Assembly: GCF_000001735.4 (NCBI RefSeq)
Contig: NC_003076.8
Coordinates: 6,262,001 to 6,326,000, forward strand
Length of the DNA: 64,000 nucleotides
Direction: 5' to 3'
Source of the DNA: Arabidopsis thaliana
Lineage: Eukaryota; Streptophyta; Magnoliopsida; Brassicales; Brassicaceae
Shown here: positions 29,023-42,088 of the stretch, piece by piece
How positions within the stretch are numbered: the first letter of the stretch is position 1
Layout of the letters: each line of letters opens with the position of its first letter
Translations under genes and position numbers: made by a program
Notes under the pieces: generated by a model
What the model was told of the DNA's origin: nothing
What the model saw: only the letters and a program-made list of their open reading frames with translations
The model's database searches: none

Positions 29023-32000
29023 ATGTTGACGAGCCCTACTTTGAAGAGTTTATGGTTCTTGTTCACTATTCTTGGACTCTTAGGACAAAACCTCCCTTGT
29101 GTTCTGTCTAGTTCACACCGTATTCTAGTGGATACAGATGTCGACACAGACGATTTATTCGCTATACTCTACCTCCTGAAACTCAACAAATCAGAATTTG
29201 ATCTAGTCGTAAGCTCACTACTACTTTTTCTACAATCCACACTCTAATTCTTCAACTTTGTTTTAATGCTCTGTTTTTGAAACAGGGGATTACACTGAGT
29301 GCAAATGCATGGACAAACGCAGGACACGCCGTGAATCAAGTGTATGATTTATTGCACATGATGGATCGTGACGATATCCCCGTTGGTGTCGGCGGCGAAG
29401 GTGGGATTAGCGACGACGGTACTATTCACTCTGACGTCGGTGGTTATTTTCCCATCATCGAACAGGTTTCTTCTTATATATTCTTCTTATTTGTTTTCTT
29501 GAATAAGTTTTGATATTAGTTTGGTTTTGAAAATGTAAAAAAAAATTGGTGTGCTTAGGGGATGACAACAACAGGGGAATGTAGATACAGACAAGCCATT
29601 CCTAAAGGTCTTGGAGGCCTTCTCGACATAGACTCCAATTATGGATTTCGTAAACAGTTTCTTCCTCAGGTATTTATTAAATTTTGACTTATGTATACGT
29701 AAAACAGAAAATTTTGACTTATCGTAGTAACAACTATATACTTACTATAATCGCGTCGGTTATCTAAAGAAGTATAATAGCTTCATTTTATATCATATAG
29801 ATCGCATGATCCCATCGCACCAACTAAGCTACTTTTAATTGCAACCACCATTTAGAATCCTTTATACATTGTGGAGGGTTTTGTGTAGACAGACATTTGT
29901 GTTGGTATCTCTTCGGCTCCACGTGTCGTGAGAAATTAGAATCATTGTAATGGTGGGATTCCAATTGAAGTAGCTGACTTTGTACATCCAAACACTTGTC
30001 GGCAACTTATAAGATTCCGATATATAGTAGTGAGACATATAATTGGAGCTTTAGGATTGGTCTTGTCGTGATATTCCATATACAAAAAACATAAAAATAA
30101 TAATTGGATTCTCTGAACATCTTTATCTAGCCTTTATCCAGTTTTTATTTTTGTTTTTTAAATGTTATCACAATTTCTTAAAACTTTTCAAATAATTTGA
30201 ACGTCTAAGATTAAGAATCTGTTTTTTTTTATATAAAAATAATATAAATCCGTGTTAGTTCAAAATTAAAAAAACAAATAACAAAAAAAAGAGCAAAAAT
30301 GCTTAAAATATCGGTATAGTAGCGAAGAATCGATTTAGTTTGTGATGTTTTTATATATTTCACAAGTGTAATTTTATATCGAATTAAATATTTAAAAGAC
30401 GGGTTTTGACTTCTTGTGGTTGGTTATGTTTTTGTGGGAAAACAGGGGAACAGAAGATACACTCCTCTCCAACAACCAACGGCACAAAAAGTGATCGTCG
30501 ACAAAATTTCCGAAGGTCCAACCACCGTAATCCTTCTCGGATCCCACACCAATTTTGCACTCTTCTTGATGTCAAATCCTCACTTGAAACACAACATCCA
30601 ACACATCTACATCATGGGCGGTGGTGTCCGATCACAAAACCCCACCGGCTGTTGTCCGGCGAACTCCACGGTGGCGGAATGTCAACCACGACAGTGCGGG
30701 AACCGTGGAAACTTGTTCACAGATTATACAAGTAATCCTTACTCTGAATTCAACATCTTCGCTGATCCTTTCGCTGCTTACCAGGTTCATTCTCCTACTC
30801 TTTTATCTTCTCTCAACTCTCAAGGATTTGTTTGGTTTATAAACTATCTTTTTTTTAAGTCTAAATAATGTTTTATAAAAATAAATATGACATTTGTCTT
30901 AGGTCTTTCAAAACAAGACATGACATGTGTTTTATTACAGGTGTTTCATTCAGGTGTTCCAGTGACTCTGGTTCCTCTAGATGCAACCAACACTATTCCG
31001 ATCAACCAGAAGTTCTTTGAGACATTCGAGAATAATTACCAGAGAACATACGAAGCTCAATACGTTTTCTTATCTCTGAAAATCGCCAGAGACACTTGGT
31101 TCGACGATGAATTCTACAAGGTAACTTTTATGAATCCATTTCCCCAAACTTAAAATAAATCAAGAATGTTTCTTTTCTTTTTTGATTTTTTTTGGTGATA
31201 TTCTTCAGAGCTACTTCATGTGGGATTCTTTCACGGCTGGTGTTGCAGTCTCAATCATGAGAAACTCTGCTAATAAGAACAACAAAAATGGTGAGAACGA
31301 TTTCGCGGAGATGGAGTATATGAACATAACCGTTGTTACTTCAAACAAACCTTATGGAAGATCAGATGGCTCAAATCCATTCTTTGATAATAGAAGAACT
31401 CCAAAATTTAACCTAGCCCTTGGAGGAGTTCACAGTGGTCATGTTCAGACGGGTTTGCGAGATCCAACTTGCTTACCGAAAAGCGGAATAGGAAGAGGAA
31501 AGTGTAAGGTTTGTGTTTCCTTCATATACCATATTCTTTTTGTAATCTGATTTGGTTTTGTTTCAGAGTAAACAATACAATTTTAACCTCTATTAATTAG
31601 GATGGTTACACACAAGAGATCTCTGGTTCTGATTCTGTTCGTGTTCTTGTTGCGACACGAGCTAAACCCAACATAAACATCAAAAGTAAACTTGACAGAG
31701 AATTCTATGTTGATTTCCTGGAAGTAAGTTTTCATATTCTCAGACAAATGACAAATCTAAGCTGAAAAAAGTTACATATCAAACGTTTTATTTGTTTGTT
31801 TGATATAACGGAGTTGTTTACATAATGAACAGGTTTTGAATAGACCTGAAGAAACAGGGAGATTTAACTTTTCATCTCAGTTTCCATACTACAAAGAAGA
31901 ATTGTTTAGACCAGATCTTAGCAAAACACGTCCCGGAAAGCCTGTTGTTTTCGATATGGACATGAGCGCCGGAGATTTCCTCTCTCTCTTCTACCTCCTC

Positions 32001-33581
32001 AAAGTTCCGGTGGATAAAATCGATTTGAAGGTATGATTTTACAGAGATCTAGCTAATCCGTGTTGCAAAACTATTGTGTAACAAATAACTCAGATTGCAA
32101 CGGTTGCTTATTGCACAAGTAACTAGGCTTGCTACACAAGTAACTAGGTGAATATGCTGTTTTCTTCAATATCCTAACACCCCCTCTCTCTTGACTCGCA
32201 AGGCTATTATTGTGAGCCCAACCGGTTGGGCTAATGCAGCAACAATAGACGTGGTCTATGATCTGCTTCATATGATGGGTCGGGACGATATTCCAGTGGG
32301 CTTGGGAGACATGTTGGCATTGAACCAATCCGACCCGATTTTTCCACCGGTTGGAGGTTGCAAGTACGTCAAGGCTATTCCACGAGGCTGTGGCGGATTT
32401 CTGGATTCCGACACTCTCTACGGTCTTGCTCGTGACCTTCCGAGAAGCCCTCGCAGGTATGTTTGTGTATATGAGTAATGTGAAAATATCTTAAGAATAT
32501 GTTATATTTATACAATGCTATGATACGATCAGTTTAAGCAATATATATCTACATTTTGATGCAGATACACTGCAGAGAATTCAGTGACACATGGAGCTCC
32601 CAGGGACACTGATAGGCCTGAACTCCGACAACCTCTGGCTATTGAAGTTTGGCAAAATCTGACCAAATCTGGTAATGGAGTGTCTAAGATCACTGTACTA
32701 ACCAATGGACCGTTAACTAACTTAGCCAAGATTATCTCATCAGATAAAAAATCATCCTCACTAATCAAGGCAAGAACAATCTGACAATATATTTGATAAA
32801 TTCAATTAAGATCCTAGACTTAATAGATGGCTTCTGTTGTAAATTGCAGGAAGTTTACATCGTGGGTGGACATATAAACCGTGAGAAATCAGACAAAGGG
32901 AACATTTTCACGATTCCTTCAAATGCATATGCTGAATTCAATATGTTTCTTGATCCTTTAGCAGCTAAGACCGTTCTTGAATCCGCTCTAAACATCACAC
33001 TCGTCCCTCTAGCAACACAACACAAGTTGAGTTCTTTCCAAACAATGCTTGATAGACTCTATTCCTCGACGAAAACACCAGAAGCTCGGTTTGTGAAACG
33101 GTTGCTTGTAAGATTGCAAGCTCTTCATCAGAAACACAGGAGATACACGCACATCGTAAAGCTTCCTTTCTCATTATGTTTCATCTTAAGACTAATATGA
33201 TTTTTGCCTTGATTTAAAAACACGCAAAAGCAAAAAAAACAATCAAGAACCTCGTCTGGTTTTCAAACTCACCCTAAATTGTTGGTACAGGACATGTTCT
33301 TAGGGGAAGTTCTTGGAGCAGTTCTTTTGGGAGGCGATGACGCTTCACTGAAGCCGAAAATGAGAGCCGAGCACATAAAAGTGATCGCGGAAGGGGATGA
33401 ATCGAGAGATGGTAAGATATTGATCGATAAACTGCGCGGCAAACAAATAAAGATACTCGAAAGAGTAGACCTAATAAGCATCTCTGAGAGTTTTGCTTCT
33501 AGACTCGATGATAAGAAACAATCTGCAGTAATAGGAAGCTTTGAAGAACAAAAGAAGATATGGAGCACACCACCAAGCTGA
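29023..33581 (+). CDS. NSH3: Secreted nucleoside hydrolase 3 (two-domain)
   Basis: Twelve exons (29023-29208, 29286-29465, 29559-29669, 30446-30784, 30941-31120, 31209-31508, 31601-31723, 31833-32030, 32203-32456, 32565-32769, 32850-33155, 33291-33581) give 890 residues. A signal peptide at about 1-29 is followed by two tandem inosine/uridine-preferring nucleoside hydrolase domains. Domain 1 (about 33-470) has the canonical metal motif DTDVDTDD at 37-44 and [12 protein letters not shown] near 256-267. Domain 2 (about 505-880) has the degenerate DMDMSAGD at 514-521. NSH3 is reported to hydrolyse extracellular inosine and adenosine for purine salvage in the apoplast. A Cys-rich loop (C228, C229, C238, C243) fits secretion. 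Intron 10 has a GC donor (CAAG/GCAAGA). Its tandem copy follows at 36.4 kb. I recall it as At5g18860. Confidence 0.95.
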
Positions 33582-36385: not shown

Positions 36386-38441
36386 ATGTTGAGTCCACGA
36401 AGGTTCATTCTAGTCGTCACCATTCTTGGACTCTTAGGTCATAACCTCACACATGTTCTGAATAGCCCACACCGTATTCTCTTGGACACAGATGTCGACA
36501 CAGACGATTTCATCGCTCTCTTGTACCTCTTGAAGCTCAACAAAACAGAATTCGATCTAGTCGTGAGCCTTAGCACATTACTTATCCAACATCCACACTT
36601 TGTTCTTCAACTTTTCTTTAACTTCGGTTTCGTTATGCTCTGTTTTTTGAAACAGGGGATCACATTAAGTGCCAATTCTTGGACAAACGCAGGACATGGA
36701 GTGAATCATATATACGACATTCTTTACATGATGGGTCGTGACGATATCACCGTTGGTGTTGGAGGAGAAGGTGGGATTCTCGAAGATGGTACTATTCTTC
36801 CTGACGTCGGTGATTATCTTCCGATCATCGAACAGGTTCTTCTTCATTCTCTCAGCTTCTGACATATACAATTGGTTTTGCTTCAGGTGAGGATTTTGAA
36901 CATGCTCATTTTTTGAAACTACAATAAATGATTTGTGGTGTTCACCTTGGTAACAGTATGTCCAATATGAATGAAATATACAAAAAGTTATAAGAAAATA
37001 TGAAGAGAAATAAAACATAGAAGAAGAATTAAGAACAGAGTAAAAAATCGATTGGTAATAAATAGAGAATGTTGAATAGTTTTTTTCACTTTTTAAAAGC
37101 TTATATGCATACTTATTCCTTTTCTCTCTACTCTTATGATGATATCTAGGGATGTTAAAGACTAAAGACAAAAAAGGGATCAAACTAAAGTGATCAGAAA
37201 ATACTTAACTGAAACAGAATTGTTTATAACTACAACGGTATCGTCATTTTTCGTAGCAAACAACCGAAACTAAATCTAACTAAAATAGTGCATACAATCG
37301 AATTGACCCAAAACATAAACCAATGCTTTAAAAAAAAAAAAAAGTTAGATCTAATTATAGTGGAAGAATTTATTACATATAGTTATTTTCACTTTTAAAA
37401 TTTTGTTTTTGATTTCAGGGGATGACAACAGCAGGAGGATGCAGATACAGACAATCCATTCCAAAAGGTCGTATACAAAAGATTGACTCCAATTATGGAT
37501 TTCGTAAACATTTTCTTCCTCAGGTATCTTATTTTCAACTATTATCAAGAGGAATTTATCACACACAAAAATAAATGAAATTTTTATCAAAATCAATTAA
37601 GTCTAGAGGTCTCTTTTATTTAGTTTCTTTAAAAATTGTTTAGTTAGGCCACACATTGGTGGAGACAAAACAAGTGTTGATCTTCAGACATATTTCTATG
37701 TCAAAGATGTTTGTTAGTCCAGTGGTTCATCCTATGTTTTGCCATTTTCATCAAAAAAATGATCAATAAGTAGAATATGATATGTCAACAAATAAATTTA
37801 CGTAAGCAAAATTTGTAGATAAAAACATCAAAAAAAATGTTTTTCTGATTAGTTCTCTTTTGGTGGGAAAACAGGGGAACCGAAGATACACTCCTCTCGA
37901 GCAACCAACGGCACAAAAAGTAATCGTCGACAAAGTTTCTGAAGGTCCAATCAGCATCTTCGTGATCGGTTCTCACACCAATCTAGCTCTCTTCATGATG
38001 TCAAATCCTCACCTCAAACATAACATCCAACACATTTACGTTATGGGTGGTAGTGTACGCTGTCAAAACCCTAACGGATTCTGCGGAAACTTGTTCACAG
38101 ATTATACAAGTAATCCTTACGCTGAATTCAACATCTTCACCGATCCTTTTGCTGCTTACCAGGTGTTAAGATCAATCAAAGATATTATAGTGATGTGTTT
38201 TGGTTTCTTTAATGTTGTTTAATAGTTATGTGTTATGTGTTCATTACAGGTTTTTCATTCAGGTGTTCCGATTACTATGGTTCCTTTAGATGCAACCAAT
38301 ACAATACCAATTAACAAAAAGTTCTTTGAGACATTCGAGAAGAATCAAAGAACATACGAAGCTCAATACATTTTCTCGTCTCTGAAAATCATCAGAGACA
38401 CTTTGTTACCCGGAAATTTTTTTTTTTTTTTTTGGTTTTAA
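36386..38441 (+). CDS. NSH4: Left half of a disrupted NSH3 paralogue (first hydrolase domain, truncated)
   Basis: Exons 36386-36562, 36656-36835, 37419-37523, 37875-38162 and 38250-38441 match NSH3 exons 1-5. Signal peptide (about 1-25), DTDVDTDD metal motif at 34-41 and [12 protein letters not shown] are intact. In exon 5 the frame runs into a LINE: after RDTLLPGNF it reads poly-T-encoded Phe residues and stops at 38439-38441, giving about 313 residues. The part of domain 1 after the insertion, including the late conserved Asp (in [11 protein letters not shown]3 D338), is on the far side of the LINE. So this half should lack a complete active site. An earlier in-frame ATG at 36317 lies in sequence homologous to the NSH3 leader and is less likely. 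Exon 3 is two codons shorter than in NSH3. I recall it as At5g18870. Confidence 0.8.
38405..38419 (+). repeat. Left target-site duplication of the LINE
   Basis: GTTACCCGGAAATTT, identical to 39479-39493. It lies within exon 5 of the NSH paralogue directly before the LINE poly-T (its poly-A read from the other strand). Confidence 0.85.
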
Positions 38442-39478
38442 TGTTAAGATTTATACCAAAGAAGAGTTCCAAACTTACAACCGAACTACACAAAATAAAA
38501 CCCAATAACACAGGAACAGACAGACAAGAATAGATTACACTGGATAAGAAAATCTAGAGAAGTAAAACTGAAGAAGAGAAGGGGAGCGCAAGTCAGCCGA
38601 GGGAAAAGACAAAAGACGATTCCGCATAGTCCGATCAATTGCCAAACGGAGAGAGGAGGCCGAGGATGAGATGGAGGTGAAGATCCGAGCGTTGCGTTCT
38701 TTCCAAACATGGTAGACTGCCGATTGGAGGAGAAGCTTGAGGATGGTGGTGGAATGAGATCGGAGAGGCAATTGTAGAATCCAGGACGAAGCAGCAGGCA
38801 GCCCAAAAGGAGGAGATGGCCGAAACTTCGAAGCAAAGAACTCCCAAATTGCCAAAGAGAAGGAGCACTCAAAGAAGAGATGTGCATGAGTTTCATCCCC
38901 ATTTGAGCAAAGAACCCAAGAGGAGGGAATATTCATGCCCCAACCTCTCAGTCGATCTCTCGTGGGCAGCCTTTCAAGAAAACTCATCCAAGTGATAAGA
39001 GAGAACCGAGGGATGTACTCTTTAAACCAAACAACTTTTGCCCATGGAACAGTGGGTGAGTGAACCCGAATCTGTTCCCAAGTGTCACGAGAAGAGAAAG
39101 AAGGTAGATACGAACCTGCAGCGTTACGCCATAGGAAAGAGTCTTGTCCCCTACTTTCATGAGGCACAGGGGCCATCGTAAGAGCAGCCAAGAAAAGCTG
39201 CGAATTATCAGATCTTGCAGCTGGCAAGAACCAATCCCCATTTCTTGAAGCTTCAACTACGCGAGCATCTTGCCTTATACGAAGTTGTCGAGGACCAGCC
39301 GCTCCAAGAAAAGTTAAAAGCTGTCCAAAATCCGTCCAGGCATCATACCAGAAAGAGGCGGATTCACCATTACCCATATCACACCTCATGAACTCCACAA
39401 TGGAAGGTTTCAGCTGAATCATACTCTTGATAGTCTTAGAGAGCCTATTTGAAACCTCCAGCATCCAATAGCTCTTTC
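38417..39478 (-). mobile_element. 5'-truncated LINE (L1-type) insertion in an NSH exon
   Basis: About 1.06 kb between 15-bp target-site duplications. A run of 17 T at 38417-38433 is the poly-A tail of a minus-strand element. The interior is an open frame for the C-terminal part of a LINE ORF2, and the 5' end breaks off in mid-frame at 39478. Poly-A, a long target duplication and 5' truncation are signatures of target-primed reverse transcription. The perfect duplication and intact residual ORF point to a recent insertion. Confidence 0.88.
38535..39464 (-). CDS. LINE ORF2 C-terminal remnant with zf-RVT domain
   Basis: A 309-codon open frame. The frame stays open up to the truncated 5' end (KSYW precedes the first Met), so the Met is internal and not a true start. 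Residues of about 110-205 match the reverse-transcriptase zinc-binding (zf-RVT) region of plant LINEs: FSSRDTWEQIR, then WFKEYIPRFSLITWMSFLERLP, then C and H residues in WVLCSNGDETHAHLFFECSF. The polymerase core and endonuclease are missing, so it cannot be autonomous. I recall this as At5g18880, annotated as reverse-transcriptase-related. Confidence 0.8.
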   Translation of the reverse strand: MLEVSNRLSKTIKSMIQLKPSIVEFMRCDMGNGESASFWYDAWTDFGQLLTFLGAAGPRQLRIRQDARVVEASRNGDWFLPAARSDNSQLFLAALTMAPVPHESRGQDSFLWRNAAGSYLPSFSSRDTWEQIRVHSPTVPWAKVVWFKEYIPRFSLITWMSFLERLPTRDRLRGWGMNIPSSWVLCSNGDETHAHLFFECSFSLAIWEFFASKFRPSPPFGLPAASSWILQLPLRSHSTTILKLLLQSAVYHVWKERNARIFTSISSSASSLRLAIDRTMRNRLLSFPSADLRSPSLLQFYFSRFSYPV

Positions 39479-39493
39479 GTTACCCGGAAATTT
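39479..39493 (+). repeat. Right target-site duplication of the LINE
   Basis: GTTACCCGGAAATTT. NSH exon 5 resumes here with TTTCTATACG and ends at a normal donor (GTACGT) at 39501. Confidence 0.85.
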
Positions 39494-39603
39494 CTATACG
39501 GTACGTAACACTTTTGTTACTCATTTTTGTTTTCTTTAGAATCCATCAAGATGTTTGAAAAACGTTGTCTAAAAGTTATCAAGTTGATTTGAATTGTTTC
39601 CAG

Positions 39604-42088
39604 CACTTCTTTATGTGGGATTCTTTCACAGCTGGTGTTGCAGTTTCGATCATGAGAAACTCTGCTAGTAGTAATAAGAACAACAATAAAGGTCAGAATG
39701 ATTTCGCGGAGATGGAGTATATGAACATAACCGTTGTTACTTCAAACGAACCTTATGGATTATTCGACAGTTCAAATCCATTCTTTTATAAAAGAAGAAC
39801 TCCAAAGTTTAACCTAACCCTTGGAGGAGTTCACAGTGGCCATGTTCAGAGGGGTTTGCGCGACCCAATCTGCATATCGACTAGCGGAAAAGGAAACTGC
39901 AGGGTAACACATGTTTTTCCCTAATCTTGTTTCAGTTTTAGAGTACACAATGCAATTACATTCTCTTTTATTTATTCTCATATTAGGATGGTTACACAAA
40001 AGAGACCTCCGGACCTGATTCAGTTCGTGTACTTGTCGCAACACGAGCTAAACCGAGCAAGAACTTGAATAGTGAACTGGATAGAGAATTTTATGATCAT
40101 TTTTTGGAAGTAAGTTTTAATGTTCTCATGAGGACAATATGTCTGCCCTAGAAAAATATGACAGATCAAATGTTTCTTTTATGTTAATAGCATCTCCATC
40201 AGTGAGATTTCTTCTTGGTTTCTCAAAAAAATTTTTTTTAGTATTTTAATAAATATTAGTTATATAATTAAATTTTAATTAAAAAAAAATATTTTGATCA
40301 AATAAACAAGTGTCTTTACGAGTTTTTTTGGAGTTTTTCATTGAAAAACTCTCTTCGCTCTCTTTTTTACTTTTTGATTATATTTCATTTTTATATTAGA
40401 TAGTTTCTCAATAAAAAATCATTGACGAAGATGATCTTATATAATGAACAGGTTTTGAATAGGCCTGAAGAAACGGGGAGGTTTCACTTTTCAACTCAGT
40501 TTCTGTATTACAGAGAAGAATTGTTCATAGCAGAACTTAATAACTCACGGCTGGGAGGAAAGCCTGTTGTTTTCGATATGGACATGAGCGCCGGAGATTT
40601 CCTCTCTCTCTTTTATCTCCTTAAAGTTCCAGTGGAAATCATAGATTTGAAGGTATTGTTTTGAAGGGGTTCAAACCATTTCTTGCTCCATAAGTTACTA
40701 GGTGAAAAAGTAACCCTAATAAAAATGGACATAATTATTGCTTTTTACACAAGTAACACTTCAGCTCTCTCATCATTCTGAATTCTCCAGGCGGTTATCG
40801 TGAGCCCAACCGGTTGGGCTAATACAGCGACAATTGATGTGGTCTACGATCTGCTGCATATGATGGGACGCGATGACATTCCGGTCGGTTTAGGAGATAT
40901 GTTCGCCATTAACCAATCTGAACCGGTTTTTCCATCTGCTGGTGACTGCAAGTACGCCAAAGCGGTTCCACAAGGTTGTGGCGGTTTTCTTGATTCCGAC
41001 ACTCTCTATGGCCTTGCTCGTGACCTCCCAAGAAGCCCTCGCAGGTATGAGAACTCAGTGGCACATGGAGCTCCGAGCGACACTGATCGGCCTGAACTCC
41101 GACAACCTCTGGCCCTTGAAGTTTGGCAAAATCTGACCAAATCTGTTGATGAAGTGTCTAAGATCACCGTACTAACCAATGGACCATTAACTAGCTTAGC
41201 CAAAATCATCTCATCAGATAAAAACTCATCCTCAATAATCAAGGTATAAGAGCTTTCTGTTATTTTTTCTAATAAATTTCATCAAGATCCGATATTAATT
41301 AAGATGGCTTCTGACGTAAATTGCAGGAAGTTTACATCGTGGGTGGACATATAAGCCGTGGAAAATCAGACAAAGGGAACATATTCACAGTTCCTTCGAA
41401 TTCCTACGCTGAATTCAATATGTTTCTTGATCCTTTAGCAGCTAAGACTGTTCTTGAATCCGGTCTAAACATCACACTCATCCCTCTAGCAACCCAACGC
41501 GAGTTTTCTTTCCAAGCAATGCTTAATAGACTCTATTCCTCGACGAAAACACCCGAAGCTCGGTTTGTGAAACGGCTGCTTACAAGATTGCAAGCTCTTC
41601 ATCAGAAACAGAGGAGATACATGCACATGGTAAAGCCTACTCTTGTCATTCTGTTTCATCGTAAGACTAATATGATTTTGGCCTTGATTGTTTTCAAACA
41701 CGCGAAGACAGAAAAACATTCAAGACCCTCGGCTAGTTTTCAAACTAACCCTACATTGTTGTTACAGGACATGTTCTTAGGGGAAATTCTTGGAGCAATT
41801 TTCTTGGGAGGAGATCACGCTTTATTGAAGCCGAAAATGCGAACTGAGTACATAAAAGTGATCGCTGAAGGAGATGAATCGAAAGATGGCCACATATTGA
41901 TTGACAAACTGCGCGGAAAACAAATAAAGATACTCGAAAGAGTGGATTTGAGAGGCTGCTATGAGAGTTTTGCTTCTAGACTCGATGATAAGAAACAATC
42001 TGCAGTCATAGGAAGCTTTGAAGAACAAAGGATGAAATGGAACACACCACCAAGTTACAAACCTATAACCGCTCGAATATTTCACTGA
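39604..42088 (+). CDS. NSH5: Right half of the disrupted NSH3 paralogue (end of domain 1 plus domain 2)
   Basis: Exons 39604-39903, 39987-40109, 40452-40652, 40791-41243, 41327-41629 and 41768-42088 match NSH3 exons 6-12, in one open frame of 566 codons. There is no signal peptide and no natural start; Met codons early in the first exon (FMWDSF, or the next at SIMRNS) could serve as starts. Domain 2 is complete with the degenerate DMDMSAGD motif, NGPLTSLA and [15 protein letters not shown]3 exons 9 and 10 are fused here because the intron is lost. The C-terminus is 10 residues longer than NSH3 (SYKPITARIFH). Intron 40110-40451 contains a MITE. Without a signal peptide any product would be cytosolic, unlike NSH3. 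I recall it as At5g18890. Confidence 0.8.
40188..40436. mobile_element. MITE in an intron of the right NSH half
   Basis: About 249 bp with imperfect terminal inverted repeats (TAGCATCTCCATCAGTG versus GATCATCTTCGTCAATG, 12 of 17) and TTA on both sides (40185-40187, 40437-40439). The corresponding NSH3 intron is 109 bp and this one 342 bp; the difference is close to the element length. Ends resemble the MITE at 27508-27714. Confidence 0.5.

Follow-up and report, generated by a model that had tools for sequence, protein, structure and literature searches.

An NSH3-type nucleoside hydrolase gene of Arabidopsis thaliana, very probably split by a truncated LINE

The 64-kb window analysed here (64,000 nt of Arabidopsis thaliana contig NC_003076.8, positions 6,262,001 to 6,326,000 of the forward strand, C5:6262001-6326000 in our searches of the 119,662,809-base, 7-contig genome) contains a cluster of sequences related to the nucleoside hydrolase gene NSH3. 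An intact NSH3 gene is followed by two partial hydrolase sequences, which we call the 5' piece and the 3' piece of a split copy, and between them lies a fragment of a long interspersed nuclear element (LINE). An initial annotation of this sequence had proposed that the two pieces are halves of one NSH3-type gene split by the LINE, and our analysis bears this out: the pieces join into a single open frame that aligns with NSH3 from end to end, and they very probably derive from one tandem duplicate of NSH3 that was interrupted in its fifth exon.

NSH3, a secreted purine nucleoside hydrolase gene product, is encoded on the plus strand at 29023..33581, where a model of 12 coding exons with their splice sites yields a protein of 890 residues with two nucleoside hydrolase domains (two PF01156 stretches in Pfam, E 5.1e-79). 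We take this gene to be At5g18860, the number that NSH3 bears in the portions of the literature consulted. Downstream, also on the plus strand, exon modelling, alignment and Pfam define the 5' piece at 36386..38419, made up of exons 1-4 (36386-36562, 36656-36835, 37419-37523 and 37875-38162) and 170 nt of exon 5 (38250-38419), and the 3' piece at 39494..42088, made up of the last 7 nt of exon 5 (39494-39500) and six further exons (39604-39903, 39987-40109, 40452-40652, 40791-41243, 41327-41629 and 41768-42088) that encode the end of the first hydrolase domain and the second one.

Between the pieces is a 5'-truncated LINE insert of 1,059 bp on the minus strand (38420..39478). Its plus strand opens with 14 T residues, corresponding to a 14-nt A tail at the 3' end of the element's sense strand, and this tail directly adjoins the left copy of a target-site duplication. 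The duplication consists of the 15-mer GTTACCCGGAAATTT, found at 38405..38419 (left copy) and 39479..39493 (right copy) with 15/15 bases identical; at an offset of 1,074 it is the sole identical run of at least 12 bases in the window. LINE target-site duplications vary in length, from about 7 to 20 bp, and 15 bp fits that range. The duplication is the only direct repeat at the ends of the insert, with two weak pairs, of 27 and 19 nt, seen internally. The initial annotation had described a 1.06-kb minus-strand LINE remnant with poly-A and a perfect 15-bp target duplication inside exon 5, in agreement with what we find. It had also ended the match to NSH3 exons 1-5 at 38405; the match itself stands, but it continues to 38419, since the 15 bp that were duplicated belong to the coding part of exon 5. 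Similarly, the exons after 39494 follow the rest of exon 5 through exon 12 in order and in frame, as had been claimed, but NSH3 exons 9 and 10 are represented by the one exon at 40791-41243, giving the split copy 11 exons rather than the 12 of NSH3.

Read as an empty site, the split copy becomes one open frame of 875 residues with intact splice sites and GT-AG introns, and its two PF01156 domains, single joined frame and NSH3 exon order bear out an ancestral NSH3-type state. Exon 5 then measures 177 nt, compared with 180 nt in NSH3, the missing codon lying elsewhere in the exon and not at the break. The joined copy and NSH3 have 80.6% amino acid identity over 862 aligned codons, and 41 codons are gaps. 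As proteins were aligned, a gap can only be a whole number of codons here; what excludes lasting frameshifts is the open frame itself. Each piece also aligns with NSH3 in frame when taken alone, the 5' piece with 77% amino acid identity over 306 codons and the 3' piece with 82.5% over 555. No stop codon or frameshift was found in either coding piece, leaving the LINE as the sole disabling change found. For the pair overall, synonymous divergence (dS) is 0.395 and nonsynonymous divergence (dN) 0.105, with a dN/dS of 0.265; the values for the 5' piece (0.278, bootstrap 0.20-0.40) and the 3' piece (0.254, 0.19-0.35) are similar. These estimates are pairwise, over both branches, and indicate that selection acted on the NSH3/split-copy pair during most of its history.

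The split copy has the exon order, the PF01156 domains and 81% identity over 862 residues in common with NSH3, and differs from it by the LINE cut in exon 5, the fused exons 9/10, 17 fewer residues in exon 4 and 10 extra residues at its end. The exon 4 difference is a Cys-containing stretch of 17 residues encoded in NSH3 (exon at 30446-30784) and missing, in frame, from the split-copy exon (37875-38162). NSH3 intron 9 (32457-32564) is likewise missing from the split copy (41040-41060 compared with 32450-32590), where the intron's first bases, GTATG, apparently remain within the coding sequence and the frame is preserved, two codons shorter; for these reasons an imprecise deletion seems a better description of the difference than an intron loss mediated by complementary DNA, its direction not being polarised. 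NSH3 intron 10 (32770-32849) has a GC donor (AAG/gcaaga), and the split copy has GT at the equivalent site, 41244. Recent gene conversion between the two paralogues gave no clear signal, as the longest identical coding run, 56 nt, was also reached in 126 of 2,000 shuffles.

The insert carries an open frame of 314 codons on the minus strand (38535..39479, from the list of open reading frames and Pfam), which is the C-terminal end of LINE open reading frame 2 (ORF2) with its zf-RVT domain (PF13966, E 1.7e-23). Reverse transcriptase and endonuclease domains were not found in this frame, zf-RVT being its only Pfam match, which is what a 5'-truncated copy should show; it is a LINE-derived dead copy and not an autonomous LINE. 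This frame is probably the gene that we presume to be annotated as reverse-transcriptase-related. A protein search of the genome with the frame gave 469 candidates, 126 of which were scored, its own locus among them; within these 126, the best other matches near the full frame reach 47% and 46% identity, partial matches reach 56% over 160 residues and 70% over 74, and some relatives in the genome carry open frames of more than 1,200 codons, compared with the 314 C-terminal codons here. At the DNA level the best match, among the best candidates scored, is 76% over about 320 bp. The DNA search returned four matches besides the insert itself, all starting at insert position 1 to 4, and 3/3 other copies fetched align with its 3' terminus and the T run there (L042, 97.5% over 40 bp; L043, 76% over 323 bp; L044, 90% over 42 bp), which supports the tail as the element's real 3' end. 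By these features the insert is the 3' portion of a LINE, truncated on its 5' side. With plant L1-type LINEs (the ATLINE families) it has in common the zf-RVT domain, the A tail, 5' truncation and a target-site duplication, with no long terminal repeats; it differs in having no close copy found and in retaining only the last 314 codons of ORF2. In the parts of two mapping papers available to us (PMC4299151, PMC10855766), AT5G18880 serves as the best-hit label for Brassica genes, and a table in PMC4299151 sets it beside the annotation 'DNA polymerase'; Brassica genes labelled in this way are probably LINE-derived gene models.

The insertion falls within the first hydrolase domain. The reading frame of the 5' piece (38226-38441, plus strand) runs on for 22 nt into the LINE tail (38420..38441) before reaching a stop codon, with a predicted product of 313 residues that ends in a run of Phe encoded by the T run. 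With the pieces run apart against PF01156, the 5' piece covers profile positions 1-209 of 297 and the second domain, in the 3' piece, positions 1-293 of 297. The 5' piece has an N-terminus that is hydrophobic by eye and the Asp fingerprint DTDVDTDD of domain 1, which an alignment with two bacterial hydrolases places at residues 34-41. According to the part of PMC8910321 consulted, the calcium ion of group I enzymes is held by two Asp of the DxDxxxDD motif together with one Asp located about 230 residues further downstream. The corresponding third Asp here is residue 315 of the joined protein, in exon 6, eight codons past the break at codon 307 and about 280 residues from the fingerprint, the greater distance being due to extra loops in NSH3-type domains. 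Thus the 5' piece has the fingerprint but its third Asp lies beyond the insert, and the 3' piece lacks both the N-terminus and the domain 1 fingerprint, so that neither polypeptide combines the two; judged from these positions, neither piece appears to hold a full canonical site, and both have probably lost their function. The second domain (NSH3 31833-32030; split copy 40452-40652) has DMDMSAGD in place of DxDxxxDD, one Asp missing in both paralogues, and may be non-catalytic; it is also the better conserved part between the paralogues, with a dN/dS of 0.216.

We hold with high confidence that a single NSH3-type tandem duplicate was split by the LINE in exon 5, because this explains together the exon order, the frame, the splice sites, the duplication, the A tail and the break in the middle of a domain, features that would be coincidences if the pieces were two separate genes. 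For most of its existence the duplicate would have remained intact and under selection. LINE RNA would then have inserted antisense into exon 5 by target-primed reverse transcription, the plus strand being nicked after ...GGAAATTT and its T-ending 3' end priming on the poly-A tail; an early halt of reverse transcription would account for the 5' truncation, with the 15-bp duplication left behind and the gene cut inside its first hydrolase domain. An unlikely alternative concerns the outcome and holds that the pieces are still used, either each as a working shortened protein or by splicing exon 4 to exon 6, which would skip the LINE-bearing exon 5 and give one in-frame protein. Exon 5 measures 1,251 nt with the LINE and 177 nt without it, a multiple of three, and skipping it would leave an open frame of 816 residues; neither piece has a disabling change besides the LINE, and the 3' piece has early in-frame ATGs, the first at 39613. 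On the other hand, skipping would cost domain 1 59 residues, the 5' piece has no third Asp, the DMDMSAGD of domain 2 is one Asp short, and in the part of PMC4688390 consulted apoplastic inosine hydrolysis is gone without NSH3. It is very improbable that two truncated NSH3 duplicates came to adjoin by chance and received the LINE between them later: presumably three genes are annotated here, and tandem duplication is evident, but the pieces adjoin within one exon and one codon frame, have the 15 bp at the break in common, and between them cover NSH3 exactly once, with no overlap and no gap, so we reject two independent truncated duplicates on anatomy. An assembly or cloning artefact, with the LINE absent from the plant, is barely credible and also rejected on anatomy, for although the comparison rests on one assembly, the clean duplication, the tail and the family-typical 3' end are marks of a real insertion, and AT5G18880 is used as a gene by other groups in the parts of their papers available, though presumably from the same reference.

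The initial annotation called the LINE recent, which is plausible within the upper bounds we obtain, but the insertion is bounded only and not well dated, because no close source element was found. The LINE frame and the coding pieces are free of stop codons. If decay is modelled as neutral, with 7e-9 as the presumed mutation rate and with presumed or assumed indel ratios, the 95% upper bounds on the age of the insertion over the settings tried are 3.5-11.1 million years (My) for the LINE frame alone. They are 1.5-4.1 My for the coding pieces alone and 1.1-2.9 My for frame and pieces together, both on condition that these pieces have evolved neutrally ever since the insertion. The 15/15 duplication adds little to this dating. 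The insertion is thus likely to be recent, perhaps no more than a few million years old, and the NSH3/split-copy duplication, with a dS of about 0.4, is far older than these bounds. We presume that the duplication is also older than the split from A. lyrata, in which case the copy should be present in A. lyrata as well, probably in unbroken form.

Several observations weigh against the split-gene interpretation or its functional part. The comparison is made within a single genome, with neither a pre-insertion allele nor an outgroup, and genome DNA and protein searches, with the best candidates scored, found no close source LINE. Pairwise dN/dS cannot separate out the time after insertion, and clean coding pieces are expected from continued constraint as well. 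The Asp argument leans on alignment with two bacterial proteins, of which the Vibrio one itself departs from the fingerprint, and the calcium-ligand passage concerns group I enzymes, while NSH3 is called IAG-type in the part of PMC4688390 consulted; for both reasons the assignment of the Asp residues rests on conserved position, not structure. Finally, the apoplastic assay is silent on intracellular activity.

A six-frame search of the genome with PF01156 gave 14 exon-level matches, six on C5, five on C2 and three on C1, and 6/6 of those on C5 fall within the NSH3 cluster of the window. We take the C1 and C2 matches to be the URH2 and URH1 genes, respectively, which are presumably of the single-domain type; by this profile search, the family in the genome has two loci besides NSH3 and the split copy. 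URH1/NSH1 (At2g36310) and URH2/NSH2 (At1g05620), as identified in the part of PMC3147060 seen, belong with the split copy to the PF01156 family and lie on other chromosomes, outside the NSH3 cluster. A search with one exon (151 residues) for relatives of the plant genes in bacterial/archaeal and viral collections gave 74 and five pattern matches, none of them confirmed, and has no bearing on orthologues.

The two pieces are presumably the genes named NSH4 and NSH5, the outer two of three genes (hydrolase, reverse-transcriptase-related, hydrolase) that we believe to be annotated here, and their gene numbers are likewise assumed; these names are unconfirmed in the literature searched, from which supplements and most subscription papers fell outside. 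Within that scope At5g18870 and At5g18890 were not found, and among the titles listed on LINE disruption or split genes none concerned this locus. The main texts of PMC4688390, PMC10746138, PMC10652772 and PMC8027947 do not mention NSH4, and the first three do not mention NSH5 either. In the passages available, PMC3147060 (2011) names At5g18860, next to URH1 and URH2, as the only further hydrolase gene that is putatively functional, which suggests that specialists had already set the two pieces aside, for a reason not stated in those passages. PMC4688390 (2015), as far as seen, cites Jung 2011 for the statement that NSH3 alone converts inosine to hypoxanthine in the apoplast, and reports that this cleavage is lost in nsh3-1 and both ent3:nsh3 lines; on this account the neighbouring split copy contributes no activity detected in the apoplast.

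Disruption of a tandem duplicate by a LINE is nothing unusual in itself, and the value of this case lies in the correction of gene models and in what it may reveal of natural variation in extracellular purine breakdown. If the split-gene interpretation is true, two hydrolase models and one reverse-transcriptase model, as we presume them to be annotated, become one disrupted gene and a LINE fragment, work that treats either piece as a separate enzyme needs rereading, and there is a simple reason why NSH3 alone explains apoplastic inosine cleavage in the plants assayed. It is possible, if on balance somewhat doubtful, that the LINE is young enough to be polymorphic in A. thaliana and that some accessions have an intact second secreted NSH3-type hydrolase. 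In that case reference plants would be naturally null at the split gene, redundancy with NSH3 would depend on the accession, and what has been concluded about extracellular purine breakdown from nsh3 mutants of the reference background would not apply to the species as a whole.

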